Shown: positions 4,945 through 63,429 of the stretch, piece by piece
Numbering within the stretch: the first letter of the stretch is position 1
Layout: every line of letters begins with the position of its first letter
Source of the DNA: Macrosoma leucophasiata
Taxonomy: Eukaryota > Arthropoda > Insecta > Lepidoptera > Hedylidae
Length of the DNA: 64,000 bases
NCBI GenBank assembly: GCA_036365455.1
Contig: JAWQUS010000027.1
Coordinates: forward strand, 18,650,501-18,714,500
Direction of reading: 5' to 3'
Position numbers and translations under genes: made by a program
The notes under the pieces: generated by a model
The model's input: the letters and a program-made list of their open reading frames with translations, nothing else
Database searches by the model: none
What the model was told of the DNA's origin: nothing

Positions 4945-5488
4945 ATATTTTATATAGGGACGAAGTAATTTACATTTCTACAGTCTTTTTTGTACCTGTG
5001 GATTAGAGTATTTCTTGTGTCGCTGATAGGTATAATATTGCAAAATATATTATTCTGTTCTCGTTGTCGTAAACTTAATATCGTTCTGACTGACCTTGTA
5101 CGATTTATTTAAATAAAAATAGAATGCACAGTATCATGCATTGTGTGGAAATTACTAAGTGCATTTAAGTACAGTGAGAACAGTACGACTCTTTCATTTA
5201 TCTCGCCTCCTTCCTGTGGCTATTAGCTTCGCTAAAATAAAATAAAAACCAAAATAAGTTGAATAATGATTCCAAAGAGAGCATTCCAAACACTTTGGAC
5301 AAGATGGGTGTCGCACAGACCGATGCGCTTCAGACCGTTTAGACCAATAACATCGCAGTGCCAGTTGTATCAAAAGAAAACAAGCACTAAATTGCAAGCT
5401 GATAAAATGAAAGATTACCAAGAGGTGAGTCCACAGAACGATTATTATTTATTTGATAATATATTCCAAACTTACCTTTTTTATCTAA

Positions 5489-5766
5489 TGGAAGTGGCAA
5501 ACAAGCATGCAGTTCATATTGATGTTAAGTGATGACTGCAGCCTATAGAAACCCATACAAAGACCAAGGTCAAAATGCAGATGCGTTACTACTCCTGAGG
5601 CCTAAGGTGTTATTTATGCCCCTGCGCCGGAAATTACAGGGTCGTACATTACCACCTGACCGGAATACGATAGTGTTGAACACTACCATTTAGCGGCAAG
5701 TATATTATGTAGTGCGGTGGTGCCTACGCCCGCGAGCTCCGTCACTGGAGCTCTACCACCAGTAAT
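5489..5766 (-). mobile_element. SINE-A copy
   Basis: One of about a dozen copies in the window of a roughly 270-base element. Read 5'-3' it starts near ggtggtagagctccagtgac, contains a pyrimidine-rich middle and ends with gcttgtttgccacttccat, then an A-rich tail. Here it is on the minus strand in intron 1 of copy 1. Copies differ by small indels only. I see no clear tRNA B box, so its origin is not assigned. Confidence 0.75.
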
Positions 5767-5937
5767 GTATATTGCCCCTGTGGTTATCGCTTCGCTTTCA
5801 CGGCCAAACGGCTAAACCAATTTTGACGAAGTTTATTCGGTTCAGAGGTAGACTAGATGCTAGATCTTTAGAAAGGACTACCATTTGTTGCAAAAAACGC
5901 TTGAAAGTGTTCAAACAGGGGATAAAAGTATGTATAA

Positions 5938-6299
5938 TAATAATAATGGCAACCCATTATACGTCCCACTGCTGGGCACGAGTCTCTCCCCTTTTTGGGG
6001 GGAGGCCTGGAGCTTACTCCACCACTCTGCTCCAATGCAGATTGGTGGAGGTGGGTGGGTTAGTGGCCAACCGGATGTCGGATGTTTTTAAACCGCCGCA
6101 TAAGGCTTCCGACAAGGTTTAACGACTGCTATTTATCGATAGCAACCGGGACCGACGGCTTAACGTGCCCTCCGAAGCACGGAAACGCGCATTTAATTTA
6201 CCACTAGCGGTCACCCATCACGCTACCCGATCGCGCCCCTAATGCTTAACCGAGTAGATCGCTTCCGATCTACACCAGCCTCGGGGCCATGCGCGCTTC
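5938..6299 (-). mobile_element. 5S rRNA-like SINE, near full length
   Basis: Read on the minus strand, the head (about 6299 down to 6190) resembles 5S rRNA: a gttaagca segment followed by gatgggtgaccgct, like the 5S internal control region. A conserved body follows, then a tail ending ttgccattattatt (TAA-type repeats). Copies lie at 18144, 31281, 35755, 40829, 53417 and 61162. The 5S origin is inferred from these two blocks; the repeat family itself is certain. Confidence 0.65.
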
Positions 6300-7489
6300 T
6301 AAGTTAGTATAGAAATTCGTTATCATCGAGAATAAAACCATGAAACTTTATATTTCGAAACTTGATAAGAAATCCTTACTCATATCACAGTACCTATATG
6401 AAAGCATGAGTGTACTTAAGTTTTTTAGGTTGTGCTAATATTATAAATGCGAAAACGTGTATGTTTGTCTGTATGTTTCGCTTTCACGTTCATCGAATCG
6501 GTGAGGTTCAGGTACGAAATCTCAGCAGGGAGAGCCCAGGCAGAGGGAGGGCTCGGGGGCTCCAACCTCAAGTACAATATACATAGATATAGGTAGGTAC
6601 TTCTTAGGTAAGAAACTGGGAGTGTCAAATTACCAAATTACCGCGCCTGGTGATCAGGTATGTCGATACTTTTTATGATGCATAGTGTGTAAAGTATATA
6701 CATAGATAGGTACCTAACAAAATTTTGTCTTATTCCACAAATTCCACAAGTCAACATAAAATATCATTTTCTAATTTATGGAATTATTACTACCATTTAC
6801 ACACAATCAGAACAATTCAATTGGAAAATTAGGAGCGAATACAATGACAGCATGGAACCACTGGCTCCAAGTTGACGAAACAGTATTTCAGAATATCCAA
6901 GATATTGTATTGGATGTAACAAATTTCTCCATTATGTAAGTATTAATTAAGAAATAGATTAATTATTTAAGCAACATAATAAACAAAAACCCTATGTAAA
7001 GCTTCCTTCGTGGAATGTAATGAGGGTAGGTTACTACTCCTGTATGTGATAAATACCTCCCATGCCTTTTATCATTCGTCACTCTCTCTATACTGTGCAT
7101 GTACCACTACCACGTAGATTCTGAATACTTGACCCCAGTTTTGGAAAGTATTCGTTCTATTTAGTCAAGATAGGTCATCCTTGGTCTTCCTGTCTATATT
7201 CGCAATGCAATTAGTTTACATTAGACAATTTGATTGTCTAATGTAAACTAATTGATTGACGTGATTTTAAATTGTTTACAGTATTGATGACATAGAAGAT
7301 AATTCTTTATATCGTGATGGACTGCCAACGTCGCATTATTTTTATGGTGTGGGTCGTACAATCAATGCTGCTAACTACGCGATGACCAATGCTATTGAGA
7401 AATCTATGCGTCTTGGAAATACTCAGGTATCGTTTGCACAGGCACTATGAAACCAGTTGGTTTATTTGAAACCAACAATTTCGTTGGTG

Positions 7490-7700: not shown

Positions 7701-8196
7701 GTGTAACTTTCGGCACAGAGGCACTTATGCCTCTGCTTAGACGTTAGGAGTGGCAAGGCATCTACATTGAAATCTTTGATTTTAATGCTTCTATGCTACA
7801 GAATTCACTTACCATTAATGTGAAATGTATCTATGCTTGCTTGTCAATTCATGACATACAAAAAAATAAGTTGGTACCTACCATATATGAATTAGCGCTT
7901 CAGTGATTTCTTATGTCTGTCTAATATCTATGTTTTATTTGCAGGCAATAAAGATATTAATAGAACATTTACTCGAACTTTATGAAGGCCAAGGAATAGA
8001 GATGTATTGGCGTGACAACTATATTTGTCCTACAGAAGAAGAATTCAAAATATGTGTCATGAAAAGTAAGTAGATTTGACATGAGAGAAAATAATTATTA
8101 TCGATATGTAATATTAAAAGTCGGGATTTATTTGTTTCAGAGTGTGGTTTTTTGTATAAAATGACGTTGCAGCTAATGCAACTGTTCAGTAAAAAT

Positions 8197-8199
8197 TAA
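8197..8199 (+). other. premature stop codon in exon 5 of copy 1
   Basis: Exon 5 (8141-8280) enters with two bases completing a split codon. In that frame the sequence reads FSKN, then TAA, then SDF; copy 4 reads FSKNESDF at the same place. A single G-to-T change from GAA would explain it. The frame stays open on both sides, so the change looks recent. Confidence 0.85.
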
Positions 8200-8489
8200 T
8201 CTGATTTCACAGATTTCATAACATCATTTAGTTTGTATCTCCAAATACTTGACGATTATTTGGATATACAACCAGGAAAGGTACGTGCGATATTTATCAT
8301 ATTCGTACATCAACGTCAATCGTTATTATACCTACTCGTAGCAGCAGAAAATATAAATTTCAATTTAATCACTTTTTTCAGGTAAATTACACCCATTACA
8401 GAAATAAAATCATACACATTGAGAATCATGATTAAACAAATATAAATTTTGCATATGTCATCATTAAATCGTTGCTCACTTACCTCTAA

Positions 8490-8999: not shown

Positions 9000-9133
9000 T
9001 CAATAAAATAAAAATAATTTAATTTAAGTCTATATTATAAAGATATTATTAAATTTAATGTTTGAATCTAAAAATAAAATCATATCAAATCAAATAAAGT
9101 CAAATTATAAAATCATAAAATTTAAACATAATA

Positions 9134-10119: not shown

Positions 10120-10194
10120 GTCTAACTGAAATCCATTTAGATAATTTGCCTCATATTAATTTGGAAGTCAACAACAATATTATAAATATTATTT

Positions 10195-10280: not shown

Positions 10281-11426
10281 TATAATATTTTTGTCGACGA
10301 CCAAATTACTCGCGTATATTAAACTAAAACGATTAGGTATTTAAAATCAACCCGAAGTTTCACGCGCGATTTGATTTTAATGAGATGTGATCCACGGAAG
10401 TTGTAAATTCAGCTGCCGTGGTCTCGGGGTTGAGGTGATCTTATATGTCTGACAGTAGTTTGAAAAATTATGAATTCATTTAATACTAATAAATTATTAT
10501 TATCTTTTAGGGTATTAATAATTCTGTCGATGATATTACTGATGGGAAATTCACTTTGCCAATTATACACGCTATAAGAACTTTAGGTGACAATCGCATC
10601 CTTCGTATCCTTTTTTGAACTTTTTAAATCTACATTGAAATTGCTGGTTTATAGATGTTTATAGGCTACAGTGTTCACTAACCATCAATGTGAACTGTAT
10701 GCTTGTTTGGCACTTCATACTTAACATTTAAAAAATCAGTGACGAGCTTATTGACATCTACATGGGGTAGTAGAGTAGCTTATCTACATAAAAGTTGCCA
10801 CTGGGAAACTTCCGAAATATGGAAATATCCCAACAGTACTTTCATTTCGACCCAGGGTTCGACCCAGGACCAGTTTATAATTTCCTTTAAATGTAATATT
10901 AGCTATTCTACGGCTACGCACACGGGATATCGAGGTGAAACGTCATTGCATATCCTTATTGGAAAATGGCGGCAGCCTGCAGTACACACGAGGCATGTTA
11001 CAAGCGCTAGATAAAGAAATACGAAATGAAGTAAGTAATTACATGCCTAACACCTATGATGTCCCTTGGCGTTGGAACGTGACGACCCAAGCACCCAGCG
11101 GAACTCTATCTCTAGTGGAAATGGACAAGGACAGTCAGTCAACCGAACAATGTCGGTCAAACCATTCTGATGAGGCGGTAGTGAGTGCAATAACACACGA
11201 TGAGCACTAGCGTCCTGCGATAAAACCACGGCCACTGCGATCGTCAATCTGCATGCCAAGCGTGGCGATTATGGCACACGCCCTTTATGGGGAGGCTTTG
11301 GTCCAACAGTGGATGTTTTCAGTTTAAATGATGATAATGTCCCCAGGGCGCCTAAAATTGGAGGCGTGAGGAAGCGCTGCAGTGGCGCCACTGTAGTACC
11401 ATGAAGTTATACTTTTTTTTTAATTT

Positions 11427-12002: not shown

Positions 12003-12528
12003 AGTGCAATAAAATAAAAAATAGTTTAATTTGAAGTCCTTAACACATACCTACCTACTTAAAAACAGGTTCGTTTTCTTTAGACTGTGCTTAAACGTGA
12101 TGTGAAATGAAAGCAGTTGGTCTGTTGCTTTTTTATTTTGAAAAAACCTAAAGAATTGTACCTAAGTAAGTCGTTAACAATTTATTATTGATTTCAGGTG
12201 GAATTCCTGGGTCATAACACGTGCATGGTGAAAATAATGGATGAACTTCTTATTTGGAAATAAATACAATTTTTATAAAAATGAATTTAAGTTAGGTACT
12301 TACCCAAGTATTACGTTATTGTAAACTCAATTAAATGAAAATAAGTTTGGAATTGAATTCTATTCTATTTAGAAATACTACTTAGTCGTAGATATGTGTA
12401 CGTAGGTATATTAATCGTTTTATAAAAGTAATTTATTCGTAATGTAAATTCATACACAGGTTCCTACATTTCATGTATTGCGGTCACATTTCAAACACTG
12501 GATGATCACTGACTTAATTAAAACAGTA

Positions 12529-13010: not shown

Positions 13011-16000
13011 TCAGCCCCAAGTTAACAGTTCATCCATCAATTCCTCTAATCGAGGATTTCCATTGAAACGTTGTATCTGAAAAAATAACAGGAGAGGGAA
13101 TTAAATATTAAGGAGCTTAAATATGCACGTATAATTTATTTAGACTAGCGTCCCGCCCCAGCTTCGTCCAGGTGAAATTTAGATGCTAATATAGAAATCT
13201 GTTTAGTCAGTAAGATTGTTAGTTGCTGCGGCGGTTGGTTGGTATATGACTTTACCCACCTCTGTCCGAATCTGTGCTTCAAGAGCCGCGAGCGTGTCGC
13301 GCGTGTACTGCATACTGCCGCATCGTTCCAGCTCCGCTATGCAGAACCGTTTCAACTCCTCATCCCGAGTATGTTGCTTCAAAATGTCTGATCTCGCTAA
13401 GGTTATCACTATTGCAAATATATATTTATAAACGCGTTTTTCAAGCTATGTTAGCAGGGCATAGAGCAACACGGGCCCCCAGCCGACCGGACGGGGCGTA
13501 GCCGTAAGCATGCAAACGGTTGCAAGCGATTTTGGTTTGTGATGAATTCAAAATTTTAAAAAGATTTCTATATTTCTATGCTTTGAACAACATCTGGTAA
13601 TGTTTAATACAATACCTACCATGTAATTAAAACTTAATTTTAAAAAGGATACGATATACTGGACTGTCTTTGTTGTTTTTGATAGCATGTATGATAGGTA
13701 GAGTAAATTTGCCTTCAGTTAAATCTTCACAGAATGTCCTTTTTTCAGCATACTGAAAGAAAAACACAAATTAATAAATAGCTTATAAAGTTTTGTACGG
13801 CCCAGTAATTTTCGGAACAGAGGCATCACAACTTGGGCCTCAGAATTGGGAACGAGTCTACAGTGAAATCTCTGGTTACATATAAATGTTTATAGTCAGT
13901 CTAAAGCAAGTCTGAAGTATTACAACGCACCTTTTTTTTCCTATCATAATGGCATCGCTTTTACGCATATTGCCAGTGTCAAGTGATATTTCGTATTAAT
14001 AAGCAACGTAAACGACGGAACGAAAACAACGGAAGTAATAAGCAACGTAAAAGTCAGAATCAGTCAGTCAATTTATCAGTCCGTCAGTCAGTCACAATCA
14101 GTAATTCGAATAAAGCGATGGCTACTTTACCAGAACTTTTATAATGAAGTTTTGGAGGCAACCCGAAAGAACGTGTTTTCGTACTGTTATTCTATTTCAC
14201 TATACACAGGCACTGTAATAAACCTATATCAAACAAGATACCATCAATTTTACGAAATATAACTCCAAAACACACCAAGAAAATGAAATAAAATAAGAGC
14301 ACCACACGCCTCTTTCAAGGTTCCCGCCAAAACTCCACAACGCACCTTATTTACCATGTAAGTAAACTGTATGCTTGTTTTGTTTGCTACATAAATAAAA
14401 TAGGTACACAGTCGAAGCATTAGGATTCAAACAAGAAGTAGGCAGTTAAAAGGCTTTTACACGATACGGTATTCAGGCTCCGGCAGAAAGGGTGGGATTA
14501 TGTGTCTATCCGGTCGACAGGGCCCTAACTCAGTCACAGTACAAATATGAACAGTATCGAAACTACGTAAAAACGTTGAAACGGCGTAATCACACAAACA
14601 TGCGCATTAACGAGGCCCCTAAGCGGTTCTCGCGGTGCTGCAGCTCCGAGTCACTCGCTGCTCGAGCGTCGATGCGCATGTTTGTGTGAGTGTGCCGTTT
14701 TGAACCTTTTTTTACGTAGTTTCCATACTGTTCATATTTGTACTGTGTGTAGTTAGGGCGTTAGGCTGACCGGGCCGCTCCGGTCGAAATTAGGACCCTA
14801 ACTTCCTAAATGTTATACACTTCCCTGACCCTTGCTATTGTACCTGAATACCGTGCCGTGTAATAAGTCCATTAGTTCTTTGAAGATATGTATTATATAA
14901 GGTTGGGGAAAAAGTTTCTTCGCATTTTTTAAGATAATTCAAAACATTTTTTAATACAGTTTATTTAAATTTAACTAAAGTATGTATGTACCATTTTGTT
15001 CGATAACCTTTTGCCATCTTGTAGGTAGGGACATGATCCCATTGCTATAAAAATTTTGGGACTTCTCATCAAAATACCGCGACAAGTGGATTTGGCAGTC
15101 CTCTCGTGATGTTAACCTAACATTGCATAAAGAATTCTGAAGAGACCGAAACAGGTGGAAATCTGAAGGTGCAAGGTCAGGACTATACGGCGGATGCATT
15201 AACACCTCCCAGCCAAAGTCTCTTAATTTTTGCTGAGTGGCTATAGATGTGTGAGGTCTAGCGTTATCATGATGAAACACCACACCCCTTCTGTTGATCA
15301 ATTCCGGCCGCTTTCTTTCAACTTCTTGCTTTAATCTCATCAGTTGTTCGCAGTAGAGTTCAGAATCGATAGTCCTGCCTGGTGGTAATAGCTCATAATG
15401 AATAATGCCCTTCCAATCCCACGACACACACAACATCACCTTATTGCGAGTTAACCCGGGTTTCGCCACAGTCTGTGAAGCCTGACCGGCCTTTGACCAC
15501 GACCTTTTTCGCACGTTCTTGTCGTACGTGATCCACTTTTCATCACCAGTTACCAGCTTCTTCAAAAATGATTCGGTTTCATTACGTCGTAATAAAGAAT
15601 CACAAATGAGTACACGGTTCATTAGGTTTCTTTCAGTGAGCTCGTGAGGTACCCAAATATCGAGCTTTTTTTTGTACCCAACTTTTTCAAATGCGCCAAA
15701 ACTCTTTTGTGATCAATTCTCAGTTCTTCAGCTAGCTTCTGGCGTTGCATTTTTACCTTTTTTGTAGTAAAATTTTAAAATGTATCGAATTTCTTCATTA
15801 GATTCACTCATCTTGACAGTACGAAAAACAAATAAAAATCACACATTTGCCTAATTTGAATTTGCAATTACGTTCTTTAAAATTTTAACTTTTAATGATA
15901 CCAAAACCAGCCAGATACAAATACTACAGCCAAAGAGATTTTATTACAAGTTATCATACATACTATAATGCGAAAAGACTTTTTTCCCAACCTATTATTT

Positions 16001-19000
16001 CCGTAGCTAGTAGTAGCACGTAGCTTGTAGCCGCGTAGCTCTACGTCATCGATGTGGGACTGGAGGCCCTCTTTGTCCGAACCCATCGACCATACAACAA
16101 GGTTGTATGGCCCGAGTATGTCTGTCCCCGTAATAACGGGGGTGTGGTTTTCATCATCATATCAGCCAAAAAATGTCCACTGCTACGTTTTAAAATCCTT
16201 TATCCTTGGTTTTATTGGGATTTTTAAATTTTCTGGAAGTTTCCCAGTACCTCGGAGTTTGGTAATGTGTCCGGTGATGGCAACAGGTTCGCCACCTATT
16301 ACATGGTGGGGTGGCGTATTTACTGGTAGTAGAGCTCCAGTGACGGAGCTCGCGGGCGTAGGCACCACCGCATTACCTAATATACTTGCCGCTAAATGGT
16401 AGTGTTCAGCACTATCGTGTTCCGGTCAGCTGGTAATGTTTGGCCCTGTAATTTCCGGCACAGAGGCATAACACCTTAGGCCTCAGGAGTGGTAACGCAT
16501 CTGCATTTTGACCTTGGTCTTTATGTGGGTGTCTATAGGCTGCAGTCATCACTTAACATCAATGTGAACTACATGCTTGTTTGCCACTTCCATTACATAA
16601 AAAACATGGGCCAAAACGTAACCGGCTTTGTGGGTGTTAGTGTATGCTTGAATGCATGCATTTACCTCTGCCTTCCCCTTCGGGGATTACAGGCGTGTAG
16701 TTACGTAATTTATTTAACCTTTCAAGCACAATAAAAGTACACGAGGCGGACTTAATGCTAGGTAACATTCTCTACCAGTCAACCTTAAGGTTGTGTAGAA
16801 AACTCAATGTGGTAGTGCAATTGAAAATTTCGCGAAGGAAAAGAATAAAGCTGTAAGTATAATAAACTTACATTAAACTAAATATCCTAACGATTTTTTT
16901 TAATGTAATGGAAGTGGCAAACAACCATGCAGTTCACATTGATGTTAAGTGAATACCAAGGCCAAATTGCCTATGCGTTACTGCTCCTGAGGCCTAAGGT
17001 GTCTATGCCTCTGTGCCGGAAATGGCCGGAAATTACAGGGTCGTACATTACCGCCTGACCGGAACACGATAGTGCTGAACACTACCATTTAGCGGCAAGT
17101 ATATCAGGTAATGCGGTGGTGCCTATGCCCGAGAGCTCCGTCACTGGAGCTCTACCACCAGTAAATATAATATACAATAACTTAAATACACATATAAATA
17201 CATATATTTTCCTTTATCTACTTAAGTAATTAGTAGGACATGTCAATAAGATAAATCGAAGCATAACTCTGTATTTTGAGGAAAAAAGTAATGTTAAAAT
17301 TGAAACTTACTTTCTCTGAGCATAGACCCCAGTAGTCGTCTAGAATTTGTATATATAATCCGAAATTCCATGAAAAAAATGTGAAGTCTGTTTTGTTGTC
17401 GCTGAAAATTTGCATCAGACTTGAAGCCAAATGGGGGGCACACCCTGTTTCTTAAAAGAAAGAAATATCTCAGTGCAGTATTAGACAATAAAATACGCCT
17501 ATACGCACAGCCCCACAGTAGGTATAAACCTGTGTCGGGGGCGCCGTTGTACACATACAACACATACACAAACACCCAGATCCGAAACAAATGTCGGTAG
17601 GCCATACGAATGCGGGGATGGAACCCGCGACCCTTCGAATCTAACGGTCATTTCACACCGCTGGACTAACCGGGTCGTCAATAAGATTGGCTGGTTCCCT
17701 CGACTTCATTCGCGTACTTTTTTTTTGGCACAAGACGTAGCCTAGATCGATTCGATCTTTCTCCATGTGATATTTTGATCTTAATAGACTCAGCGGCTTA
17801 GTCGTGACAGCGTAATGGCCACACCACGGTTATTGCGTGAGACATACAGAGTTATTTCATACTTTTCACACTCAAGACAAAAATACCTTTACTAACTTCC
17901 AATCTTTCGTTTCGTTGAATTTCCACGCAAAAACCTTTCAAAAAATGTGTATTTACAATTAATTATAAGCACCCAAAAAGAAGGTGAGCTGTCGGAGAAT
18001 GCAATTTATTATCTAAGAACGAAGATCTTTAATAAAAGTTAGTTATTTTACTGAATTGACATTGAATTTATGAAAACAGTACATTTTATATTAGGTTCCT
18101 GACTTTTGTTCTCTAAGCCTGGGTTGCACCATGATATTTGTTATAATAATAATAATAATGGCAACCCATTATACGTCCCACTGCTGGGTACAACTCTCCC
18201 CCCTTTTTTGGGGGGAGGGCGCTGCTCCAATGCGGATTGGTGGAGGTGTTGGGGTGTACCCGGTGTCGGATGTTTTCAAACCGCCCATAAGGCCTCCGAC
18301 AAGGTTTAACGACTGCTATCTATCGATAGCAACCGGGACCGACGGCTTAACGTGCCCTCCGAAGCACGGAAACGCGCATTTAATTTGCCACGATATTTGT
18401 TAAAGTTAAGGTTATTATAACATTTCACATCCTGCTCTAACTTAGAGAAATATGTTAAAGTTAGAGAACGATGTGAAATGTTACAATAACTTTTACAAAT
18501 ATCTTGGTGCAACCCAGGCTTATAAGTGTTCATTACCAAATTGTCATCATCAAATAATGCAAGTCACTTTTAATACAAACTTACTTTATTATAAACTCAT
18601 GTTCCTTGGAATGCACTGTTATCAATTCATGGATTCAGTAAAATTACTTAAGTAAAAGATAAAAACTCACTTAGCTTAAGCATATTCTTATATTCTTCCT
18701 CTGAAGGGCATTGCAAGTTATCACGCCAGTGCATTTCTAAAAATTGACCCCGGAAATACTGCATTAGACATCTTGATAGGGCGGATATTGCCTAAAAACA
18801 TGGACTATTCGTTGAGTACTTTCAAATAACATCAGACTTCAATTATTTGGGACTTGAGAGTTATCTTCATACACAGGGTTAATTTAAATTAGCGCATCAC
18901 CTCTTACAGGCAGCCTCTCTAAATCAATCCCATACAATCCATTAAATTTGTTCTACGACAAAAGAGCATTGCCGCCGCTGCGTCACCCCGCAATCCCGCT

Positions 19001-22987: not shown

Positions 22988-22989
22988 CT

Positions 22990-42315: not shown

Positions 42316-42889
42316 ATGATTTTGAGAGTGGGATTATCAACGGTAATTACCTAAAATAAATATTTGCATTACTTGTGAGTACCTACGTATATAAATCAAT
42401 GCAAAAATATCTATAGTTCGTATAACATTAACAATTGCTTATAATTTGCTAGGTACACCTACTGCTTTATTATACTTGCGAAATATAATATAATATGTAA
42501 ATAAATATATTATTTAACTATAGGTACTTAGGTATAAATTAGATGTTCCTCCATTATTTTCAGCATGCACGGATTGTGACCGAAGATCACCATCTGAAAT
42601 TAATAATAAGTACTTTGAACGAAGTATTTTTTACGAAAATAATCTTTATTGGCTTCCCATTAAAGATTTTATCCTCCTAACGATCCTACGATTATGGCAA
42701 GAAATACAAACTTAGAAATATATTTTCATAATATACCGGTTATGACTATATGCCTCCCTCTAAATGAGTTTGCAAATGATTCTCCCCTCCCTCAGTTTAT
42801 CAAGGACCATACCAGTTCACAACTGAGCCAATCGCCCTAAAAGAAATAGCTGGATTCGCCACCCTTTAAATTTTATCTATATACATTTA

Positions 42890-48800: not shown

Positions 48801-51800
48801 TAGAATTATACGTGTAGACAGCGGAGAAAAGCTTTAAAAATGTTAAGAAGGAATTTTGGACCCAGATTAAAAGACGAACGTGAGGAACAAAAATGGAATA
48901 GTAAATACTGAAATCTATCTCTTGGAAATGAGATATATTGTTGGACATTTTAATAGGTTTAAGCATTTACCTACCTTTATTTTACCAATTCTTTTGCTCG
49001 CGTCATTGTTACTCTTAGGTACTTACATCAGGCAACCATTAGTTATAATCAGTACAATATCCTGAATGTCCCGAAATGTTTCTTCATCCACTTGGAGCCA
49101 GTAGTTCCACGCTCTCATTATATCCGCTGTTAACTTCACAAAATGATTGTTCCAATTATGGATAAACGGCAGCAATAGTTTCTAAAAATGTAGAACAATA
49201 TTTAAAACAAGACTTATAGGCCATCGTTCTTCTTTCACACGAGCATTTGGTTTCTGATGGTAACATGTAACATATCAATGCGCCAATTGTGCGCCAATTT
49301 AGTCCTGATAGGGACACTTTTTTATGAAACCAAGATGGCTTGTTTGCCATGTTTGCACGCAGTTTACATGGCTTTTAAATGATGACATATAACATGCAAC
49401 CTATAGACAATCTACACAAAAACCCGAGGTCGAAATGCAGATGCGTTGCTCCCCTAAGATCTAAGTTGTTGTCTCTGGTTGTTACGGTTACGGGACAATA
49501 CCTACATTACATCAGTGTAAGCGTATTTTTTATTATCTAACCGGAAAACGATAGTGCTGAACACTACCATTAAGTGGCAAGTAGATACGGTACTGCGGTG
49601 GTGCCTTCGCCCGCGAGTTCTGCCACTGTTGGTAGAGCCACCAGTTATTTCATAATAATTATGACCTAACCGGATCCTTGTCTGGTGCTGTTGTTTCACT
49701 TTTATCCTCAGATAACCGCTAATAAATGTAGTGTTTTTTAAGTTGCTAGTGCTGCTAAACAGGGTTATCTGCATAAATAACCACGTGTCTTTAAAGAATC
49801 GAATAGATAACAAATCGTTTTTTGTTGCAAATAAATGATAATCTACCCATTCAACCATTAAAATCGAATTAAAAAATAATCCGGTACCGTGACCGCAATT
49901 ATTCAAATATTCGTATACCAAATGGGATTTCCGTAAATATACGCTAGTCCAAAGACAGAGATCACGTGCTACTCGGCGGCGCGGTGCTACTACTGCACGT
50001 GTATCAGTGTATAATAACATCTGGAAGCACGGCAGTGGCCCCGCCAAGTCGAGCAAAAAAGCGGCACGGCCGTCCGATTCAGGCTGTTTTCGCCAATAAC
50101 TTTGTTTTGAATTAACATTGAAATTAGAATTTTCAGTAATCAAGCAAGCATTGTGCAAAAACGGTGTATATCAAATTACATTCAATTTGAACCAGTAGTT
50201 TAAGAATTATGACTAGTCAAAGTGTAGTCTGATTAAAAGTCTTATATGTTTTAAATAAAAACATTGATTTGGGAATCGCACTTAACGATCTAATTTAATG
50301 GCTGTCACATGCGTCATACTCGTGAACGGGTGCTGTTGGTGGGGACTGGTCTGTTCTGGTTTGCAGGAGCTACATCTCATTTAGTAGATAGCAGTTTATT
50401 TGCATCTATGCTATGGATATTCACATTGTTTGATTTTTCACGATAATCTGTACTAGATTTAAGCTCTCATTTAAAAGAGGTCTTACTGAGTTTGTTGAAG
50501 CGGAGTTCTTCTTAGTAGTGACTGCACTTGAAACTCAGCTAAGTGAATAACTTTGATCTTGACGAATAAGTTTTTCTTTTTCTTCATTTTACGTCATTGA
50601 AGGAATTGAAAAATTTTGTGATTATTATGTTTTAACTAAGTAGTTTTAATTCTATTTTTTAATTTACTATTTATATATGATTTTGCTTTAACTTTATGTA
50701 ATGGCTAATCACTCTAGGTATTTTATGATTTCTTGACGTTTAGAAAGTATCTTTAAAGATCTATTCGAAATAAAGATATTTTTATTAATTTATTAATTAA
50801 TTATATATTACTTGTTCTTGTACACGCGTACATTGTGTGTTCATGCGATGGCCGAGGTAAGGTATTCGTTTATTTAAAACAAAAAAAAAAAGATATTGAT
50901 ATGGTCACTTCTGGATGTTGTTAGGTTAGCTAACTGAGTAAATTAATAGCCGATGTTCCGGTCAGGTGGTAATGTACGGTCCTGTAATTTCCGGCACAGA
51001 GGCATAACACCTTACGCCTCAGGAGTGGTAACGCATCTACATTTTGACTTTGGTCTTTGTGTGAGTGTCTATAGGCTGCAGTCATCACTTAACATCAATG
51101 TGAAGCATGCTTGCTTACCACTTCCATTTATTTTATTTTATTTATTAATTAGCCTTCTTTCATACAATTTCACAATCGGTTTAGTTATTTAGTTGTTTTA
51201 ATAATTGTCATATCTGTGTGCTTTTTTATAGCAAAGGCCTCCTCCAACTGACTCCACGTTCCTCTTTCTCTAGCTAGCGATGTCCAAGTACCGCCTGCCA
51301 CTGCTTTAATTTCGTCAACCCATCGCCTGACCACTTCCATTACATAAAAAAAATAAGCCTGACGTCAAGTATTGTCGCTCTTTTCGTAAGAAATTAGTAC
51401 TGACGGTAAAGCTTATGGCCTGAAACAACTTATATCTCTGGAGTGGCAACGCGTCTGCATTTTGACCTCTGGTTTATGTGTTTATGTTTGCAGACTGCAG
51501 CCATCACTTAACATCTATGTGAAGGCTTGTTTGCCACCTGTGTTACATAAAAAAAGGTGAATAAATCCTATCAGACGCGTAACTATTGGTTCTGAATGCT
51601 GTAAAAATATATTTTATGTTTTTTTTTTTAATGGAAGTTGCAAATAAGCATGGAGTTTACATTGATGTTAAGTGATGACTGCAGCCTATAGACATCCACC
51701 CAAAAACCAAGGTCAATATGCAGACGCGTTATCACTCCTGAGGCCTAAGTGATATGCCTCTGTGCCGGAAATTACAGGGCCGTACATTACCACCTGACCG

Positions 51801-52089
51801 GAACACGATAGTGCTGAACACTACCATTTAGCGGCAAGTATATTAGGTAATGCGGTGGTGCCTACGCCCGCGAGCTCCGTCACTGAAGCTCTACCACCAG
51901 TCAGATTTATTAAATTGTACTTACCTCCTCGTAGTTTATGTTTTCACTTTGAGGCACTTTATAGCTATTTATTTTGTGTTGTATATTTTTCTTTTGAAAG
52001 TAAGATTGAGACATTATCCTCCTAAGAATGATAGGCCGATGTGTTGGCCTGATCATTAGTAATGTTTGTTTCACTTTGTTTCTAATCAT
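42890..52089 (-). CDS. GGPPS-derived terpene synthase-like gene, copy 4 (3' end damaged)
   Basis: Exons on the minus strand: 52089-51925, 49181-49027, 47828-47684, 47538-47418, 46105-45966, 44691-44601, 43969-43842, encoding 315 residues without a stop. The last exon is uncertain: NNTICHVIEALL to the stop at 42890-42892 fits the family's C-terminus, but its first codons and acceptor are replaced by a GC-rich repeat. Motif 1 DDIED is at 109-113, followed by YRDG; GQGVEMYWRDN; KCGFL at the exon 4/5 junction; motif 2 DDYMD at 233-237; DITDGKFSLP. GKxxR is FVKLT, the His before motif 1 is Thr, and the second Arg is Asp. Intron 6 has a GTATCCTT donor and a TTTCTTAATA branch-like site. The N-terminus is very basic (RPTHRPIILRR). 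It is the sister of copy 1. If exon 8 is not spliced, translation would continue into intron 7. Confidence 0.75.
42959..43060. repeat. GC-rich repeat interrupting exon 8 of copy 4
   Basis: The block gcaacacgggccaccggccg with ggcagaccagaggggag and attaccgatgcaaaacag recurs in both orientations at 63549-63600 and 63790-63860, and in part at 13467-13500. The copy here begins exactly where exon 8 similarity ends (42958), so it is probably the insertion that removed the acceptor. Confidence 0.55.
43733..43830 (+). repeat. tRNA-like SINE fragment beside exon 7 of copy 4
   Basis: Divergent copy (gagcggctggactagactcc, gcgggttcaagtcccgc, tail aaaatttttcttt) ending 12 bases from the exon 7 boundary at 43842, on the opposite strand to the gene. 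Confidence 0.55.
44840..45316. mobile_element. MITE with AAGGTCGATT ends
   Basis: The left end aaggtcgattgacatca and the right end tgatgtaaatcgacctt are inverted with one or two differences. The interior is non-coding. It lies in intron 5 of copy 4. Confidence 0.65.
45525..45745. repeat. GC-rich block with internal direct repeat
   Basis: accaaatccgctgtcgctaca occurs at about 45562 and again near 45648, with further ccggt/ccgac repeats. All six frames are partly open because stop codons are rare in it. It has no recognised product and may be the core of a DNA transposon derivative. It lies in intron 5 of copy 4. Confidence 0.5.
46273..47105. mobile_element. cluster of MITE family G copies with nested SINE-A
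   Basis: A minus-strand end (46273-46322), a plus-strand copy starting at 46343, and a minus-strand partial copy (46970-47105) sit side by side. A SINE-A in minus orientation (46543-46705) interrupts the plus copy, which resumes at 46706 with attcgagtaaagcgatgg and ends near 46936. It lies in intron 4 of copy 4. Confidence 0.6.
47981..48272. mobile_element. TIR element related to 18873-19531
   Basis: Left end aaattagcgcatcgcctttt and right end inverted (aaagaggcgatgctctaattt). The interior is shorter and AT-richer than the larger relative, though it keeps the ctctcaaccggcatttact and gcggagcgcggagcgg blocks. It lies in intron 2 of copy 4. Confidence 0.6.
49370..49640 (-). mobile_element. SINE-A copy, diverged
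   Basis: Minus-strand copy (atggcttttaaatgatgaca through acactaccattaagtggc to gccactgttggtagagccac). It is more diverged than other copies and has a small insertion near 49470-49540. It lies in intron 1 of copy 4. Confidence 0.65.
49650..50295. other. intron 1 of copy 4, non-repetitive part
   Basis: A minus-strand open frame spans 49502-50158 (218 codons), but its 3' third lies in the SINE-A copy and no domain or signal peptide is recognisable. I treat it as chance openness and not as a gene. Confidence 0.4.
50299..50790 (+). repeat. repeat family E copy
   Basis: Near-identical to 8510-8980, differing by short indels, ending at ctattcgaaataaagatatttt. It lies in intron 1 of copy 4. Confidence 0.65.
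50953..51128 (+). mobile_element. SINE-A, 5'-truncated
   Basis: 3' part of SINE-A, from gttccggtcaggtggtaatg to ccacttccatt. A second, more diverged partial copy follows at about 51420-51555. Confidence 0.7.
51637..51902 (-). mobile_element. SINE-A copy next to exon 1 of copy 4
   Basis: Complete minus-strand copy ending with gaagctctaccaccagt, only about 20 bases from the donor of exon 1 (51925). Confidence 0.8.
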
Positions 52090-55126: not shown

Positions 55127-58100
55127 TTATTGCAAGGTGAGCAGGTCATCCATTAGTTTTTGTAAAAGTGGATTACCATTGTGTAGATGCATCTGAAACA
55201 AAACAAATTTGTTTTTTATATGCACTGAAACTATTATTTATGATTTTTTTTCCCCCTTTATTATAGTATAAATTAACAAAGTTTTAACATCATATCACTT
55301 AATGCTAGCATTGAAAAAACCACTAAGGTTTGTTAGTATGCTAACCTAATTTATGTCGGTAGGCAGGTAAAAAACTGTACATACAATAATTTAGTTGAAA
55401 ATAATCTATAAACCTAAGATACATACCTACGAAGGAAACAAAACATGCAATACAGAGTTTAAGAGTTAGGTCGATATGTACTAAGTTGGGTAAATATACT
55501 TAAAGAATTGTTACTATCAAAATGACGCATTTTAACAATGAGTCATTTCGATGAGCCAATAAATCAATAAATGAATAGTCTGGTAGATATTTTGTAGGAC
55601 TTAACTTATTTTGAAATTTTGTAAATTAGTGAGAACAAGAGAATTTGCTTTGATGTTATTAGTTGTTAGACTATCACGCAAGTCCGTAGGTAGATTATTA
55701 ATAAGTGTGGGCACGATGTAGGCACTAGTTCTTTCGCCGTAAACATTATTCGCGCGAGGAGTACTCAGCTGTCGTCGAGCAACCGCCCGGGTATATACAG
55801 GGTGATGTATTAGATGCTGAAAGTTTTTTTTAAAAAACAAACATTTCAGTGTCTTATATTTGAATTGAGTTTGTATTGGCAATATTTTGCAATATTCAAA
55901 CAAACCACTATGGTCGTTACGAAAATTTGTTCTTAATTTATTTGGTACAATATTTTTTTAGAATTTTTACTTGGAGATTATAAATTTTATTCAGGTAAGT
56001 GTTATAAGTTCGACCATAGCTGCATAATCCGTTTACATACCTATAAATTACATACCTACATATTGTTTTAGATGCTATTGGTACCTACTACTGAACTATT
56101 TGAGGCAATAGATAATAATTTTGCAATAGAATAGCAATATTATTTTCAAATGCCGTTCCTACTTAATTGCAATGAAATCATGAAAGTCATTAAGTACCTA
56201 ATACTTAAAAGCTGTGCTTAAAAGTTACACGACAGTATAGAAACGCTCAAGTGCCTATAGAAAACTTAATATTACCTATTCAATATTCTTTAAAATAAAA
56301 TATATTTCACAAGCATGTGTTAATGCGAAATAATATAAAACAATTATTAAGGGTAAAAGCGACTTCTTTACGATATTCAATAAACTGCAAAGTCTATTAT
56401 ATCGGTTGCCTAACTAGCATAGTTGGTAATAAATGGCGCTGCTGCTACCATAAAGCAATGCAATAAATGTGAAGGAAAGATTTGACAAATCGGGCAGGAC
56501 TTCAGTAGCTCAATTGGAAGAGCGGCTGGACTAGATTCCCAGTAGGCCGCGAGTTCGAGTCTCGCCTGAAGTCAAATTTTTCTTACATTTTTCTTTAAAA
56601 TTAAATATATTTCACAAGCATTTGTTAATGCGAAATAATATAATACAATTATTCAATATTATATCATCACCTACAATAAAGTAGCGGTTTGCTTATTACG
56701 ACTGTTTGTACCTACCTATTTCTTATTTTATTTTCTAATTCAGATGTAACGCAATTCATATAACATTTGGTTTTAGACTTGGTAGTGTTAGATAGTAGCA
56801 AATAATATTTATGATTCTTGAAGCTGTAGACGCTTAGGAAGGTACTTTTAGTATTAAAGAATTGGCCGCTTGATTATACGTGCATCTCATTAAATTGTTG
56901 ACAATTACAAAAAGTTTATTTTTATCAGTCACAGGTCATATAACACGACATTATCCCACCACCTCCCATTTCTTACCTTTTGGTATACGGGGCTAAACAT
57001 ATACCTATCCTATGTTACCACAAACATATATCTAAGAAACAAAGAAAATGTCTGCTTCCATGCTATATCTCCCTAAAAGTTATTATCCTTATAATAATAA
57101 TAATATAATAATATATAATAATCTGGCAACCCTCCAACTAAGTGACATCAAAATTCCTTTCTCCGAATATTCGCAACTCTAAAAAATATAAATCTGCTCA
57201 AACAAACAAACCCGAATATAAATTTACAATAAACAGCAATATAGTGAAAAGGTTTACTATAAATTTTACAATTTAATAGAGATTTTAAATGAAATAAACA
57301 TAAATATGTACAAATTGACAAGAAAGAAATGTCACCATTGTCAGCAACAAATACAATAGAAAAGGAAATTATGTAACTTACACTGATAAATACAATGATA
57401 CCAAGAAAGAAATGGAAAGATGATCACTAGAGCAAAAGCCAGACATCTAGAAGCACAGACACCAGCTCCGGGCTCGCCGCTGAGCTCCGCCTCGCAACCG
57501 CTGGCCGCCGCCTCCTCCGTGAGTGCATCGCTGCCGGCCACCGCAGCCGCGTCGAGCTCCAGCGACGAGTACCACTCCCCGCCGTCGACACCAACACGTC
57601 GGCGTGTCGGCGTGGAAGACCCCGGCTACCGGCCGGCTTGGGACCTCGAGGCCAACCGAGCAGGGTCCCCGCTGCCGGTGGTAACGTGCAGCGCATGAAA
57701 TGGACGCGGACAATAAATGAAAACGTGATGCGCGCATTCTTTGGGGCTACAGAGGGAGGAATTAACCTCACTGCGTACCGCAGTCGTATGCTCTCTCTGT
57801 TCCAGGTACTTGAGCCAACAGTCTGTGTTTCGAGCCAACGTCTATCGGATCAGGTGCGTGTCATCCAGCGTGGTCACATGTTCGAAGACACTGTACTTGA
57901 TCGGCTACGCTCCGAGGCGGCGAGTGACCGTTCTGTCCCCACCCCGCCGCCGCGTGTGGTGCACTCACAGCATGGTAGTGTCGTGAATGTGTCGCAACGT
58001 ACCGACGGGGGGAAGATAGACGAGGTCACCACAACCGTAAGTAACCAATACATTGAGCAACTGAGAGCCGCTTTGGAACATGCTCTTCTTGAGTATCGGT

Positions 58101-61100: not shown

Positions 61101-63429
61101 TTTTTATTTTTGTAATAATATATGTATGTAAAAATATACAAAATATGTAAAAAGCTTAATAAATGAGAATAATAATAATAGCTACCTATTATACGTCCCA
61201 CTGCTGGGCACGAGTCTCTCCCCTTTTTGGGGGGAGCTGGAGCTTACTCCACCACGCTGCTCTAATGCGGATTGGTGGAGATTCGGGTTGGTGGCCAACC
61301 CGCTGACCGCCCATAAGGCCTCCGACAAGGTTAAAACGACTGCCGTCTATCGATAGCAACTAAGCAGAGCAGATAGATATTATAGCAGATAGATATTATC
61401 CTTAATATATTAGTAGATAGATATTATCCTTAATTTGTCCTTATTATGTTACCACTCCTCCCCAAATGTCACAACAAAAACACACAGAGGACTTCGGTGC
61501 GGTATGCACGCGCTAGGATTGATAAAGAACTTGACTTACCTCTCATTTTACTCAGCAGCTCGAGCCGCTCCGCTTTAGCCGACCGCCTAACTGAAATGCT
61601 TTCGTTTAGGACGTTATCTTGTCCGTTTCGTACCGCCTATTAAAACATTTTGCTCTTAAGTATATACCTGCTCACAAAAACACTTCCAGGGATAAGTTAG
61701 ATGGTACGAAACTGATAAGATGTTGCCATAATCGAAATCTAAACGAAAGCATTATGGTGCGCGACTGCGTGCGTCATTGCCAGGATAGGACGAGAATGGT
61801 ATCAATGCGAGATTGAGACTTAAGAGATCTCGAGCATAGTAATGTTTATTTTATTTTTGTTTTATTTTCGCGATATCTTTTATTTTGTTAACTTTTTTTT
61901 GTTTTTGTGAACATAATTTGACTTTACATGGTAATTGACATCCGTGCGTCACCGAATGGGTTCCGATTGAAAATCAGCGCTAGGCTCACACCGGGCATAT
62001 TGCTGAATCGGCCACCTTTTTGGTGCTAAAAGGAGACACACATTCAGAGCAGATCTATGTATCTAGTATGTTGTGCTATTTTTAAAGTGATTTTATGTTC
62101 TTTTTTCTCTGTAACCTTTATTTGGTGCAGGAAGCAAACGGGTTGTGTTTGCTTTCAGCAACAAATAAAGTTTTACCTACTTTCATTTGAGTTAGGTTAG
62201 GTTAGGCTACCTCTGTCCGTATGTATGCGTCGAGAGCCGCGAGCGTGTCGCGTGTGTACTGCAGGCTGCCGCATCGCTCCAGCTCCGACACGCAGAAACG
62301 TTTCAAGCCCTCGTCACTTGTTCGTTGCCTCAAGATATCTGTTCTCACTATAGGATATTCTATTGGTTGTGTAGTCAAAGAAGACCTCAGGAAACGTATA
62401 GAGGCGTTCGAAATGTGGACGTACAGACGAATGTTGGCTATAAGCTGGACTCAAAAGGTAATCAATGAGGAGGTTCTTCGACGCGTGAAACAGAAACGTG
62501 AGCTTTTGCAGACCGTAAAACAACGAAAAGTGGCCTACCTCGGACATGTACTGAGACATGATAGGTACGAGTTGTTACAACTGATTATGATGGGAAAAAT
62601 CGCAAGTAAAAGATGAGTTGGACGAAGAAAGAAATCTTGAAACCGGGAACAATATGCCATAATGACCGCCAACCTTCGCTAGTCGGAGAACCACCCCAAG
62701 AAGAAGAAGAAGTGTAGTCAAATAAATATTTACAATAGTAGCTTGGCTCAAAGGCAACATGCGCCACATCATCACCTAACTCCCGTTAGGTAAATGGTGG
62801 TGTTCAATGCTCAATGCAACTATGATTGTAGAAAGACTAATTTAAGGCACCAAAGAAAAAGGACTCGGAACCCTAGAAATAGTATTTTTTCTACAGTCAT
62901 AGCTTTAGTTGTATACCTATATAGGTATTTGTCTGAGCTGCTTATTATACTTAACTTATTTATTTATTTATTCTTTCTCTCTTCAATAAAACATCGGTAC
63001 AAATGGCGGACTTAACGCTTAAAGCGCTCTCTGTCAGTCAACCATTGGTAGTAAAAAAAATTGTACTTTAACTTCATCAGTATTCATTTCTTGTTAATTT
63101 CTTCATTGAATAAAAATTATAAATATTCGTAATTAAAATAATTGCGTACAATGGCTAGACCAAACCGATGGCCTAGGCAATCTGAAAATTGAAAATATGA
63201 TACCAAGTTTAGTGATATTTTCGAGTTTGTTATTATTTTAAGCATACATACCTACTCGTATTTAGATAATAAAAAAACAATTGATACATAATATGATAAT
63301 AATTGAACGTTTAGATAATAAAAGGATACGAAACACTGGGCTATCTTCGTTATGATTAATGGCATGTATTATTGGAAGAGTGAATTTCCCTTCCGTTAAA
63401 TTCATACCGAAGACTTCGCTTTCTGCATG
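55127..63429 (-). CDS. GGPPS-derived terpene synthase-like gene, copy 5 (3' part only)
   Basis: Three exons on the minus strand: exon 6 63429-63330, exon 7 62338-62211, exon 8 55192-55127; exons 1-5 must lie to the right of the window. Exon 6 keeps [15 protein letters not shown], but the usual CED before it reads GMN. Exon 7 reads ILRQRTSDEGLKRFC then [14 protein letters not shown]. Exon 8 ends NGNPLLQKLMDDLLTLQ. It is of the copy 2/3 type. Donor 6 is GTATCCTTTT. Intron 7 is about 7 kb because of an R4/Dong-like LINE. An RTE fragment sits 29 bases from the exon 7 acceptor. No stop or frameshift is seen in the three exons. Confidence 0.75.
55200..56490. other. intron 7 of copy 5, left part
   Basis: AT-rich. 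A minus-strand open frame at 55601-55903 ends with NLPTDLRDSLTTNNIK, resembling the C-terminus of some CR1-type LINE reverse transcriptases; it may be a small LINE fragment. Otherwise nothing is recognised. Confidence 0.4.
56498..56650 (+). repeat. tRNA-like SINE copy
   Basis: Same element as 34298-34440, including upstream flank (gcgctgctgctaccataaagc) and the tail with atttcacaagcatttgttaa. The acceptor stem is imperfect here (acttcag against ctgaagt). Confidence 0.6.
57420..57698 (+). pseudogene. N-terminal part of the R4/Dong-like ORF, out of frame
   Basis: 93-codon frame rich in Pro, Ser and Ala (SPPSTPTRRRVGVEDPGYR) that overlaps the next frame by 61 bases. Compositional continuity across the overlap (gtgccggtggtaacgtgc region) suggests one original reading frame broken by a 1- or 2-base change. 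Programmed frameshifting is a less likely alternative. Confidence 0.55.
57638..61030 (+). CDS. R4/Dong-like LINE reverse transcriptase with REL endonuclease
   Basis: 1130-codon open frame. Reverse transcriptase: NWKAPGPDGLHNFW near residue 405, YRPITCLPTAYKLL, WIDYKKAYDSVPH, GIFQGDILS and catalytic YMDD near 636. After the thumb comes a Cys-His motif (CRACHRPGESLRHIVSGC near 937), then a restriction-like endonuclease region (KPDIVVIDR near 1022, VDITVPHDENL near 1040), as in R2/R4/Dong-type elements. The Pro/Ser/Ala-rich start of the protein appears to lie in a different frame at 57420-57698 (MITRAKARHLEAQ...), so a small indel near 57670 probably separates the two parts. The tail runs into AATAAT repeats, fitting Dong-like TAA targeting. 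It lies in intron 7 of copy 5, antisense to it. Confidence 0.85.
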   Translation: MGPRGQPSRVPAAGGNVQRMKWTRTINENVMRAFFGATEGGINLTAYRSRMLSLFQVLEPTVCVSSQRLSDQVRVIQRGHMFEDTVLDRLRSEAASDRSVPTPPPRVVHSQHGSVVNVSQRTDGGKIDEVTTTVSNQYIEQLRAALEHALLEYRSTLAEFRPRLPRLPMHRRNVALVGALDSLLPEYIDNSKDLSDTHSILYCAAIAACRVARVKFPNLDMTSRPKPAVPAWQCRIERRIAEARALIGKLLCFRMGNTRPRVMRFVRRAFSGTGVSPQNYLAHITERIDFQKQKVCAWASRIRRYKERVDRYMQNRMFKSDQTWVYRTWERSDPRVADTSRPDDDAMIAFWRSIWSEPVGHSEDDWILDIERACEPIREMDEVLISADDVAHAVRPMPNWKAPGPDGLHNFWLKWLRSSHARLAAQFQSSLDSGSLPQFLTSGVTHLLHKSGSTAEPKNYRPITCLPTAYKLLTSIVRVKITKHIEDHFIMSSSQNGCRGGSRGAKELLLIDMTISQQVRRNRKSLSTCWIDYKKAYDSVPHTWLLKVMELYKINTTLRTFLMACMSQWSTVLRYPGSRRPLAVGEPVRIARGIFQGDILSLLWFCLALNPLSTLLEASGLGYRLRRGGQVISHLLYMDDLKLFGSNNSQLTELLRVTQNFSSSIRMEFGIEKCAVMHVHQGKIMESERVQLPNSIQLRSLSATETYKYLGMSEALGICEAGMKQSLRERFFGRLKKVLKSLLSGGNKVRAFNGWVMPVLVYSFGILKWTQTDLESLDRKIRSLLTSYRMHHPRSSVMRLYIPRKCGGRGYLNAQSLHNREVCSLREFFLTAKGGMHQDMVAVDSGLTPLSLAKQNWRKPVVLTTSDRRNAWQGKELHGRFYRALHGPDVDFQASVAWLRFGDLFGETEGFVCAIMDEVVMTNNYRKFILRDGTVDICRACHRPGESLRHIVSGCSSLANGEYLHRHNQVARIIHQQLALKYNLVAAEVPYYRYALDPVLENSHVTMYWDRSIITDRTIVANKPDIVVIDRLERRAMIVDITVPHDENLVKAEKDKQIKYLDLSHEVVAMWDVDSAVIVPVVVTVNGLVAKSLDQHLKRLSLGNWVKGLVQKAVLLDTARIVRRFLSLSP
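61162..61366 (-). mobile_element. 5S-like SINE, 5'-truncated
   Basis: Tail side at 61162 (TAA repeats shared with the end of the LINE), body to ctatcgatagcaac. Truncated and with internal deletions. The LINE 3' end lies directly in its TAA-type tail. Confidence 0.6.
61380..62160. other. intron 7 of copy 5, right part
   Basis: A tandem pair of agcagatagatattat repeats at 61367-61435. Beyond that there are only short open frames without known domains. Confidence 0.4.
62380..62722 (+). mobile_element. RTE-like LINE C-terminal fragment
   Basis: The plus strand encodes RKRIEAFEMWTYRRMLAISW, VINEEVLRRVKQKRELLQT and YLGHVLRHDRYELLQLIMMG, the conserved tail of an RTE-like reverse transcriptase, then a stop and an AAG-repeat tail. 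GTGTAGTCAAA occurs at 62369-62379 and 62712-62722 as the target duplication. It sits in intron 6 of copy 5, just upstream of the exon 7 acceptor. Confidence 0.8.
62945..63050 (-). mobile_element. LINE 3'-end fragment (AAAT tail)
   Basis: Minus-strand match to the LINE 3' end at 10195: gttgactgacagagagcgc, gttaagtccgcc and an AAAT run at 62955-62972. It lies in intron 6 of copy 5. Confidence 0.5.

Follow-up and report, generated by a model that had tools for sequence, protein, structure and literature searches.

A tandem array of GGPPS paralogues in Macrosoma leucophasiata that probably encodes terpene synthases

What do several GGPPS-like genes standing in a row in a lepidopteran genome produce? 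The question arises from a window of 64,000 nucleotides of Macrosoma leucophasiata (assembly GCA_036365455.1, contig JAWQUS010000027.1, forward-strand positions 18,650,501 to 18,714,500), the whole stretch analysed here. A sequence-only reading had described five tandem copies with one common exon layout, C1 on the plus strand converging with C2, and the gene models bear out this arrangement. The tandem array of GGPPS paralogues is real, and it is longer than described: eight genes, a canonical GGPPS (G0) and the paralogues C1 to C7, occupy approximately 135 kb. The window holds all eight exons of C1 (5266-12263, plus strand), C2 (13011-22917, minus), C3 (31111-39135, minus), and C4 (42528-52089, minus); of C5, its final three exons lie within 55127-63429 (minus). 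The remainder of C5, followed by C6 and C7, lies downstream, beyond the window on the C5 side, and G0 lies upstream, beyond the opposite side. An array limited to five copies is thus ruled out by the flanks. The gap between the convergent C1 and C2 measures 747 bases.

All copies follow the same plan. In C1, exon 1 starts with the ATG at base 5266, encodes a basic leader of 53 aa (5266..5424), and ends at the donor GTGAGT. It precedes exon A (6781..6935), exon B with the FARM DDIED (7282..7426), exon C (7945..8065), exon D with the SARM DDYLD (8141..8280), exon E (10511..10604), followed by the U12-type donor GTATCCTTT, exon F (10903..11030), and exon G (12198..12263). In every copy of the window a U12-type donor follows exon E and exon G includes the stop codon; in C2, C3, and C4, exon A has lost the IPP motif GKxxR. 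On the minus strand, C2 consists of exon 1 with a basic leader of 55 aa (22753..22917), exons A (22206..22360), B with the FARM DDISD (20056..20200), C (18671..18791), D with the SARM DDYWG (17311..17450), E (13653..13752), F (13260..13387), and G (13011..13076). C3, likewise on the minus strand, has a basic leader of 58 aa in exon 1 (38962..39135), the FARM DDIQD in exon B (35931..36075), and the SARM DDYCG in exon D (33889..34028); its other exons are A (37143..37297), C (35168..35288), E (33461..33560), F (32868..32995), and G (31111..31176). The minus-strand exons of C4 are 1 (51925..52089; basic leader of 55 aa), A (49027..49181), B (47684..47828; FARM DDIED), C (47418..47538), D (45966..46105; SARM DDYMD), E (44601..44691), F (43842..43969), and G (42528..42593). 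C5 contributes exon E (63330..63429, base 63429 being its first base), exon F (62211..62338), and exon G (55127..55192) on the minus strand, its exons 1 and A to D lying outside the window. The 7 kb between its exons F and G hold a reverse-transcriptase frame.

Descent from GGPPS, also proposed by the sequence-only reading, is shown by several features. Exons A, B, C, D, and F measure 155, 145, 121, 140, and 128 nt in all eight genes, including those outside the window; exon E is 91 to 103 nt long, and the one U12-type intron behind it is common to all eight. PF00348 (polyprenyl synthetase) scored above the cut-off in C2, C3, C4, C7, and G0, the five of eight models scanned, where terpene synthase families did not exceed the cut-off and appeared below it in C2 and C4. 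The copies share 45-55% identity with the linked G0. A grouping of the copies with one-to-one GGPPS orthologues, which would have told against the sequence-only reading, does not appear: the tree unites C1 to C7 in one clade (support 100/99) separate from canonical GGPPS, and only G0 groups with the canonical one-to-one orthologues. Among 140 proteins compared, G0 is nearest to the GGPPS of the skipper Epargyreus clarus (90%); the array is lepidopteran and probably skipper-like, G0 being the one gene that carries the skipper affinity. Two other sources of the copies, relatives of FPPS and of decaprenyl diphosphate synthase, were ruled out. Two of the six loci in the C23 cluster (L001 and L003) show a DDIMDGS motif, which we take to be of FPPS type, and the C27 region at 14.87-14.92 Mb resembles decaprenyl diphosphate synthase subunit 1.

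The residues that the copies have lost point to a changed function. The IPP site of all seven copies lacks Lys25, Arg28, Arg74, and Phe184, each of which at least 172 of the 176 reference GGPPS retain, and His57 is lost in five, C3 and C5 retaining it; K25, R28, H57, and R74 are all present in G0. R28, R74, and F184 are IPP contacts as described in PMC4106277, and K25 would be one by analogy with Lys57 of FPPS. FARM, Arg73, Lys151, Gln185, and Asp189 are kept in all seven copies, as are D64, D65, and D68; D188 is kept in six, the exception being C6. Counted over the IPP list (K25, R28, H57, L61, R73, R74, and F184), 37 of 49 cells are lost in C1 to C7, with p ~0.002 against random sets of columns equally conserved among the 176 GGPPS. 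For the five Asp-rich residues the loss is 1 cell in 35, fewer than expected (p 0.026), and for K151/T152/Q185 it is 2 in 21 (p 0.20, not significant). In the account given in PMC10962984, loss of IPP-binding residues marks insect terpene synthases derived from prenyltransferases; C1 to C7 show both several such substitutions with the metal site kept and an origin by IDS gene duplication, their tandem copies adjoining a canonical GGPPS. The sequence-only interpretation is thus supported in part: this selective loss, with the allylic and metal site retained, favours a terpene synthase-like function. Most simply, the loss reflects a single ancestral event common to all copies and therefore does not amount to seven independent proofs. 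Moreover, P0084, listed as a terpene synthase of Matsumurasca onukii, keeps every IPP residue tabulated, so that these residues do not separate the enzyme types cleanly; the EoTPS of this species is reported to convert GPP to geraniol.

In our judgement it is likely that the array encodes IDS-derived terpene synthases, the adjoining canonical GGPPS having given rise to them through tandem duplication. The common ancestor of the copies would have lost the IPP (acceptor) site and kept the site for magnesium and the allylic diphosphate; GPP, FPP, or GGPP would therefore still be ionised. Instead of being coupled to IPP, the carbocation would lose a proton, react with water, or close a ring, yielding a hydrocarbon or an alcohol. 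In five of the seven copies the pocket positions 59/60 hold bulky residues, which suggests substrates of C10 or C15. The products may be scent or defence terpenes, as the sequence-only reading proposed.

The retention of both aspartate-rich motifs and of K151/Q185 (save D188 in C6), with PF00348 as the sole family above the cut-off in the models scanned, would also suit enzymes that are still prenyl diphosphate synthases, tissue-specialised for GPP, FPP, or GGPP, a role implied by the names that certain relatives carry in databases. We regard this as improbable, because the four positions lost throughout the array include three IPP contacts and the putative contact K25. Less probable still are irregular coupling enzymes, which would join two allylic diphosphates and need no normal IPP site; no sequence feature speaks positively for them, and to our knowledge no enzyme of this kind is known in Lepidoptera. 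The same residue pattern would suit such enzymes, and irregular coupling by unidentified insect prenyltransferases has been discussed for mealybugs (PMC10960109).

The copies might also be catalytically inactive, either as relaxed or decaying duplicates or as regulatory partners of hexameric GGPPS. C1 is indeed broken: its exon D contains one in-frame TAA, and its exon A acceptor lacks AG (..TTTATG|GAA). Many conserved positions have drifted, 13 of 103 conserved columns being lost in all seven copies, and the Heliconius family includes pseudogenes as well as a member for which no activity was detected (PMC7815096). On the other hand, exons A to G are open in six of the seven copies, exon 1 is conserved in six, and most of the metal and allylic site is untouched by the losses. 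Pairwise dS is mostly high or saturated, and in the three pairs for which it lies below 1.5 and dN/dS can be used, the ratio is low (0.13-0.19). Inactivity of the copies thus appears unlikely, and the array does not have the character of a pseudogene array. The earlier count of two intact and several decaying members was wrong: C2, C3, and C4 have an open reading frame across all eight exons with GT/AG borders, and C1 is the sole visibly broken copy.

The N-terminus of the putative terpene synthases adds a further difference from G0. Six copies (C1 to C6) carry a homologous basic, acid-free leader that is absent from G0; in each of the six leaders found, the first 30 aa contain 5-7 basic and no acidic residues. 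The same rule yielded 39 other ATG-to-donor frames, none with such a composition. An earlier control scan passed 4 of 79 frames, all of which belong to C1, C2, or C4 (twice), and none of 71 other frames. Likewise, none of 183 N-termini of relatives (at least 10 aa, among the matches listed) reaches a net charge of at least +5 over the first 40 residues. A scan for ATG-to-donor frames found no first exon of C7 within ~27 kb. A search with the N-terminus of E. clarus matched a short canonical first exon with a donor only before G0, and weakly (E 1.3); such an exon in the copies is ruled out. In C3, C5, and C6, an alternative downstream in-frame ATG would yield a leader with acidic residues, and C5 has an additional ATG farther upstream; the start in C3 and C5 was chosen partly by homology. 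By composition and homology the leader resembles a mitochondrial presequence. The copies would have gained it, and it may direct the proteins to mitochondria.

GGPPS expansions are already known in nymphalids, Heliconius among them, and in the skipper Lerema. In Heliconius melpomene, HmelOS is an ocimene synthase and HMEL037108g1 a linalool/nerolidol synthase (PMC7815096). As in the array, the Heliconius paralogues are clustered beside a conserved GGPPS and include pseudogenes (PMC7815096), and decaprenyl diphosphate synthase subunit 1 lies on the same chromosome. Whereas the array copies lack K25, R28, R74, and F184, the 13 nymphalid paralogues compared largely keep them and have lost 4 of 91 cells of the IPP list; none of these is named Heliconius, nor is any of the 197 matches listed. 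In the tree, the nymphalid paralogues form a clade separate from C1 to C7, but a joint clade is not rejected (p-AU 0.209) and firm independence from the nymphalid expansion is not sustained. Lerema accius likewise has a large divergent GGPPS clade beside conserved copies, with 13 members compared to seven in the array, and pheromone use was proposed; the section of PMC4551732 on this clade does not analyse residues, exons, or leaders. Sandfly LlTPS and flea beetle PsTPS1 keep 3 and 4 of 15 IPP-contact residues, a loss that likewise marks the synthase; LlTPS is annotated as FPPS-like and the beetle synthases are described as nearer to FPPS, whereas the array consists of GGPPS paralogues (PMC10962984). 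A possible parallel to the leader is found in termites (Neoisoptera), where GGPPS duplicates that became terpene synthases keep the FARM although their GGPPS motifs are eroded, and the copies of one species are reported to carry a mitochondrial leader that its GGPPS lacks, a contrast that the putative presequence of C1 to C6 would repeat against G0. According to PMC13143122, these duplications are independent of those in Heliconius. Termites belong to another insect order, and the activities of their enzymes are proven (PMC13143122), those of the array copies predicted.

Only a small number of terpene synthases have been described in animals, and it seems that several insect lineages evolved their own from prenyltransferases. 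The locus displays the anatomy of such a transition cleanly: next to a conserved parent gene stand seven daughters, all without the same acceptor-site residues. It is conceivable, if somewhat doubtful, that presequence gain and IPP-site loss in this seven-gene radiation represent a second, convergent insect origin of mitochondrial terpene synthases. If so, a butterfly array would make terpenes inside mitochondria, as has been suggested for the termite GGPPS-like synthases. The common leader makes the cellular site of insect terpene synthases directly testable in a second order.

Gene finding by motif scan, DNA self-comparison and exon-wise tblastn covered the window (C27:18650501-18714500; genome of 616 Mb in 61 contigs) and its flanks, 60 kb on the upstream and 70 kb on the downstream side (194 kb in all; window coordinates, negative values being upstream). 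It yielded a canonical GGPPS gene, G0 (-28374 to -11156, minus strand), and seven GGPPS paralogues: C1 (5266-12263) on the plus strand and, on the minus strand, C2 (13011-22917), C3 (31111-39135), C4 (42528-52089), C5 (55127-71472), C6 (74995-85064) and C7 (98317-106639, excluding the first exon, which was not found). The five-copy array proposed in the sequence-only reading is borne out by these predicted models, the window holding complete C1 to C4 and the exons E to G of C5. Five exons have one length in all eight genes (A 155, B 145, C 121, D 140 and F 128 nt), and exon E measures 91-103 nt; the last exon, G, was located in every gene, with the weakest match in C4. The joined frames A to F are open in seven of the eight genes, the exception being C1, which has a single in-frame TAA in exon D and no AG acceptor at exon A. 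The E-F intron always starts with GTATCCTTT (10605, 13652, 33460, 44600 and 63329 in the window, and three positions outside it), the U12-type donor consensus. RTATCCTTT occurs nine times on both strands of the 194 kb, eight times as an E-F donor, and several copies have, close to the E-F acceptor, a branch site resembling TTCCTTAAC or TTCCTTAGC, as in the U12-type branch-site consensus. The common exon lengths and the shared U12-type intron of the predicted genes mark the copies as DNA-level duplicates of the GGPPS gene and rule out an origin as retrocopies. LINE-like reverse transcriptase frames lie at 1128-4058 (plus) and, within the last intron of C5, at 57431-61027 (plus); Transposase_1/DDE and Mos1-type HTH pieces and an RNase H frame occur inside the array (14978-15712, minus; 20542-21042 and 29477-30703, plus).

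By its sequence, G0 is the canonical GGPPS. Its best match among 140 proteins compared is from the skipper Epargyreus clarus (90%), with whose GGPPS it groups in the tree (support 97/93). The paralogues are 45-55% identical to G0 and 40-75% to one another. Three protein searches (26 of 26, the best 120 of 410 and the best 120 of 2,500 matches) gave 197 distinct proteins, many nameless and none, among the matches listed, named as Heliconius or Lerema. In a tree of 36 chosen proteins and our eight genes, C1 to C7 form a single clade (100/99), in which C1 and C4 are sisters (100/100) and C2, C3 and C5 fall together (100/97); thirteen nymphalid paralogues of Maniola, Pararge, Bicyclus and Brenthis form a separate clade (100/100). 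Uniting the array with the nymphalid paralogues is 9.4 log units worse (p-AU 0.209), and uniting it with G0 and E. clarus 3.5 log units worse (p-AU 0.358). The better tree has the array arise separately from the nymphalid paralogues, but neither alternative is rejected and a separate origin is not proven; the branches are long.

Other prenyltransferase-like loci were found elsewhere in the genome. At C23:8499266-8560800 (L001-L003, L005, L006, L008), polyprenyl-synthetase matches form a second cluster, which seems to contain several copies; L001 and L003 contain DDIMDGS, an FPPS-like motif. An intronless 328-aa polyprenyl-synthetase-like frame on contig C15 (L022, 82-1068, minus), in which a clear DDxxD is absent, is perhaps decaprenyl synthase subunit 2. 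On the contig of the array, 3.7 Mb away, lie exons (C27:14873938-14917635; L004, L007) that by motif look like those of decaprenyl diphosphate synthase subunit 1. In Heliconius melpomene, too, subunit 1 and the GGPPS cluster are on one chromosome, number 6 (PMC7815096).

Because exons A, B and D are equal in length in all genes, residue positions are comparable without gaps. They are numbered as in human GGPPS, via alignment and motif positions, and were set against 176 references (the 197 listed proteins minus four fused models, the 13 nymphalid paralogues and four odd rows, P0023-P0026). The diphosphate of IPP is bound by Arg28, His57, Arg73 and Arg74, its tail contacts Leu61 and Phe184, and the carbocation is steadied by Lys151, Thr152 and Gln185; in FPPS, direct salt bridges come from Lys57, Arg60 and Arg113 (PMC4106277), which by position would be K25, R28 and R74 here. 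K25, R28, R74 and F184 are retained in none of the seven copies, H57 in two, L61 in three and R73 in all. On the allylic/metal side, K151, Q185, D64, D65, D68 and D189 persist in all seven, D188 in six and T152 in five. Among 103 columns at least 97% conserved in the references, 43 are kept and 13 lost in every copy. The seven IPP columns have lost 37 of 49 cells, matched by equally conserved random column sets at p about 0.002, whereas the nymphalid paralogues (n=13) have lost 4 of 91. The five aspartates have lost one of 35 cells (p 0.026 for so few losses) and K151/T152/Q185 two of 21 (p 0.20, alone not significant). The choice of sets was our own, and both variants are reported: leaving R73, L61 and F184 out of the IPP set gives 26 losses in 28 cells (p 0.0015), and a set of ten columns that counts R73 on the allylic/metal side gives three in 70 (p 0.002). 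In the Tenebrio protein P0024, one of the odd rows, the IPP residues are also gone, but the FARM is altered as well. At the pocket-closing positions 59/60, C1, C2, C3, C5 and C6 have F or L; position 59 is S or A, and position 60 is S, in 174 of the 176 references each. Since these positions are linked to chain length (PMC4106277), C10/C15 substrates might be guessed for the copies.

Insect terpene synthases of IDS origin are marked by substitutions in the IPP-binding motifs (PMC10962984). The array, with IPP residues lost and FARM kept, can be compared with termite GGPPS-like proteins, in which the FARM and one other motif alone persist (PMC13143122). A strict rule by which loss of the IPP site equals a terpene synthase is, however, spoken against by P0084, an entry named as terpene synthase of Matsumurasca onukii with every tabulated IPP residue present; EoTPS of this species reportedly converts GPP to geraniol (PMC6995508). 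Among the matches listed, many insect GGPPS-like records with canonical residues carry the name 'terpene synthase' in public databases, and such a name is no evidence of function.

The canonical first exon encodes 15 aa. A longer, homologous first exon of 53-58 aa was predicted in C1 to C6 by frame, donor and shared tail motif, charge not being used; the C1 start is that of the sequence-only reading. Five of these leaders share M-I-x-x-K/R-x-x-Q, and five have x-[VE]-P close to the end. Residues 1-30 include 5-7 basic and no acidic residues in all six, and such a basic, acid-free N-terminal composition is typical of mitochondrial presequences. None of 39 other ATG-to-donor frames (45-65 codons, identical rule, same 194 kb) passes, and among the listed relatives whose N-terminus is at least 10 aa long (183 proteins), none reaches a net charge of at least +5 in the first 40. 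The composition depends on the start: if translation began at a downstream ATG, 35 leader residues would include six acidic ones in C3, three in C5 and one in C6, and in C5 a further ATG precedes the chosen start by 28 codons. P0173, a Brenthis ino paralogue, has a long basic N-terminus (+4 in the first 40, no acidic residue in the first 35) not seen in the other twelve nymphalid paralogues. In one termite, mitochondrial leaders are reported to occur generally in GGPPS-like proteins and not in GGPPS, a contrast that the putative leader of the copies and the short canonical first exon would parallel in composition; the same source states that localisation of insect IDS-like synthases has been studied in no species (PMC13143122). 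Among the matches listed for mitochondrial targeting and insect terpene synthases (12 of 24 papers), the targeting term occurred in three, none of them a Lepidoptera study by title, and the Heliconius paper (PMC7815096) makes no mention of mitochondria.

Pairwise Nei-Gojobori dN/dS (28 pairs) was 0.134 for C1/C4 (dS 1.12) and 0.19 for both C3/C5 (dS 1.26) and C2/C5 (dS 1.46); in the remaining 25 pairs dS was >1.5 or saturated. Its low value for C1/C4 points to a recent loss of C1 or to a rare allele of this copy.

GGPPS expansions have been published for nymphalids (7-8 copies; PMC4568561), for Heliconius and Bicyclus (PMC7815096) and for the skipper Lerema accius, with 13 divergent copies and a proposed pheromone use (PMC4551732), the only paper with the geranylgeranyl term among the 15 matches listed, of 244, on skipper genomes. 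As far as searched, loss of IPP-site residues uniform over an entire lepidopteran array appears to be new, as does the putative acquisition of a leader by its copies.
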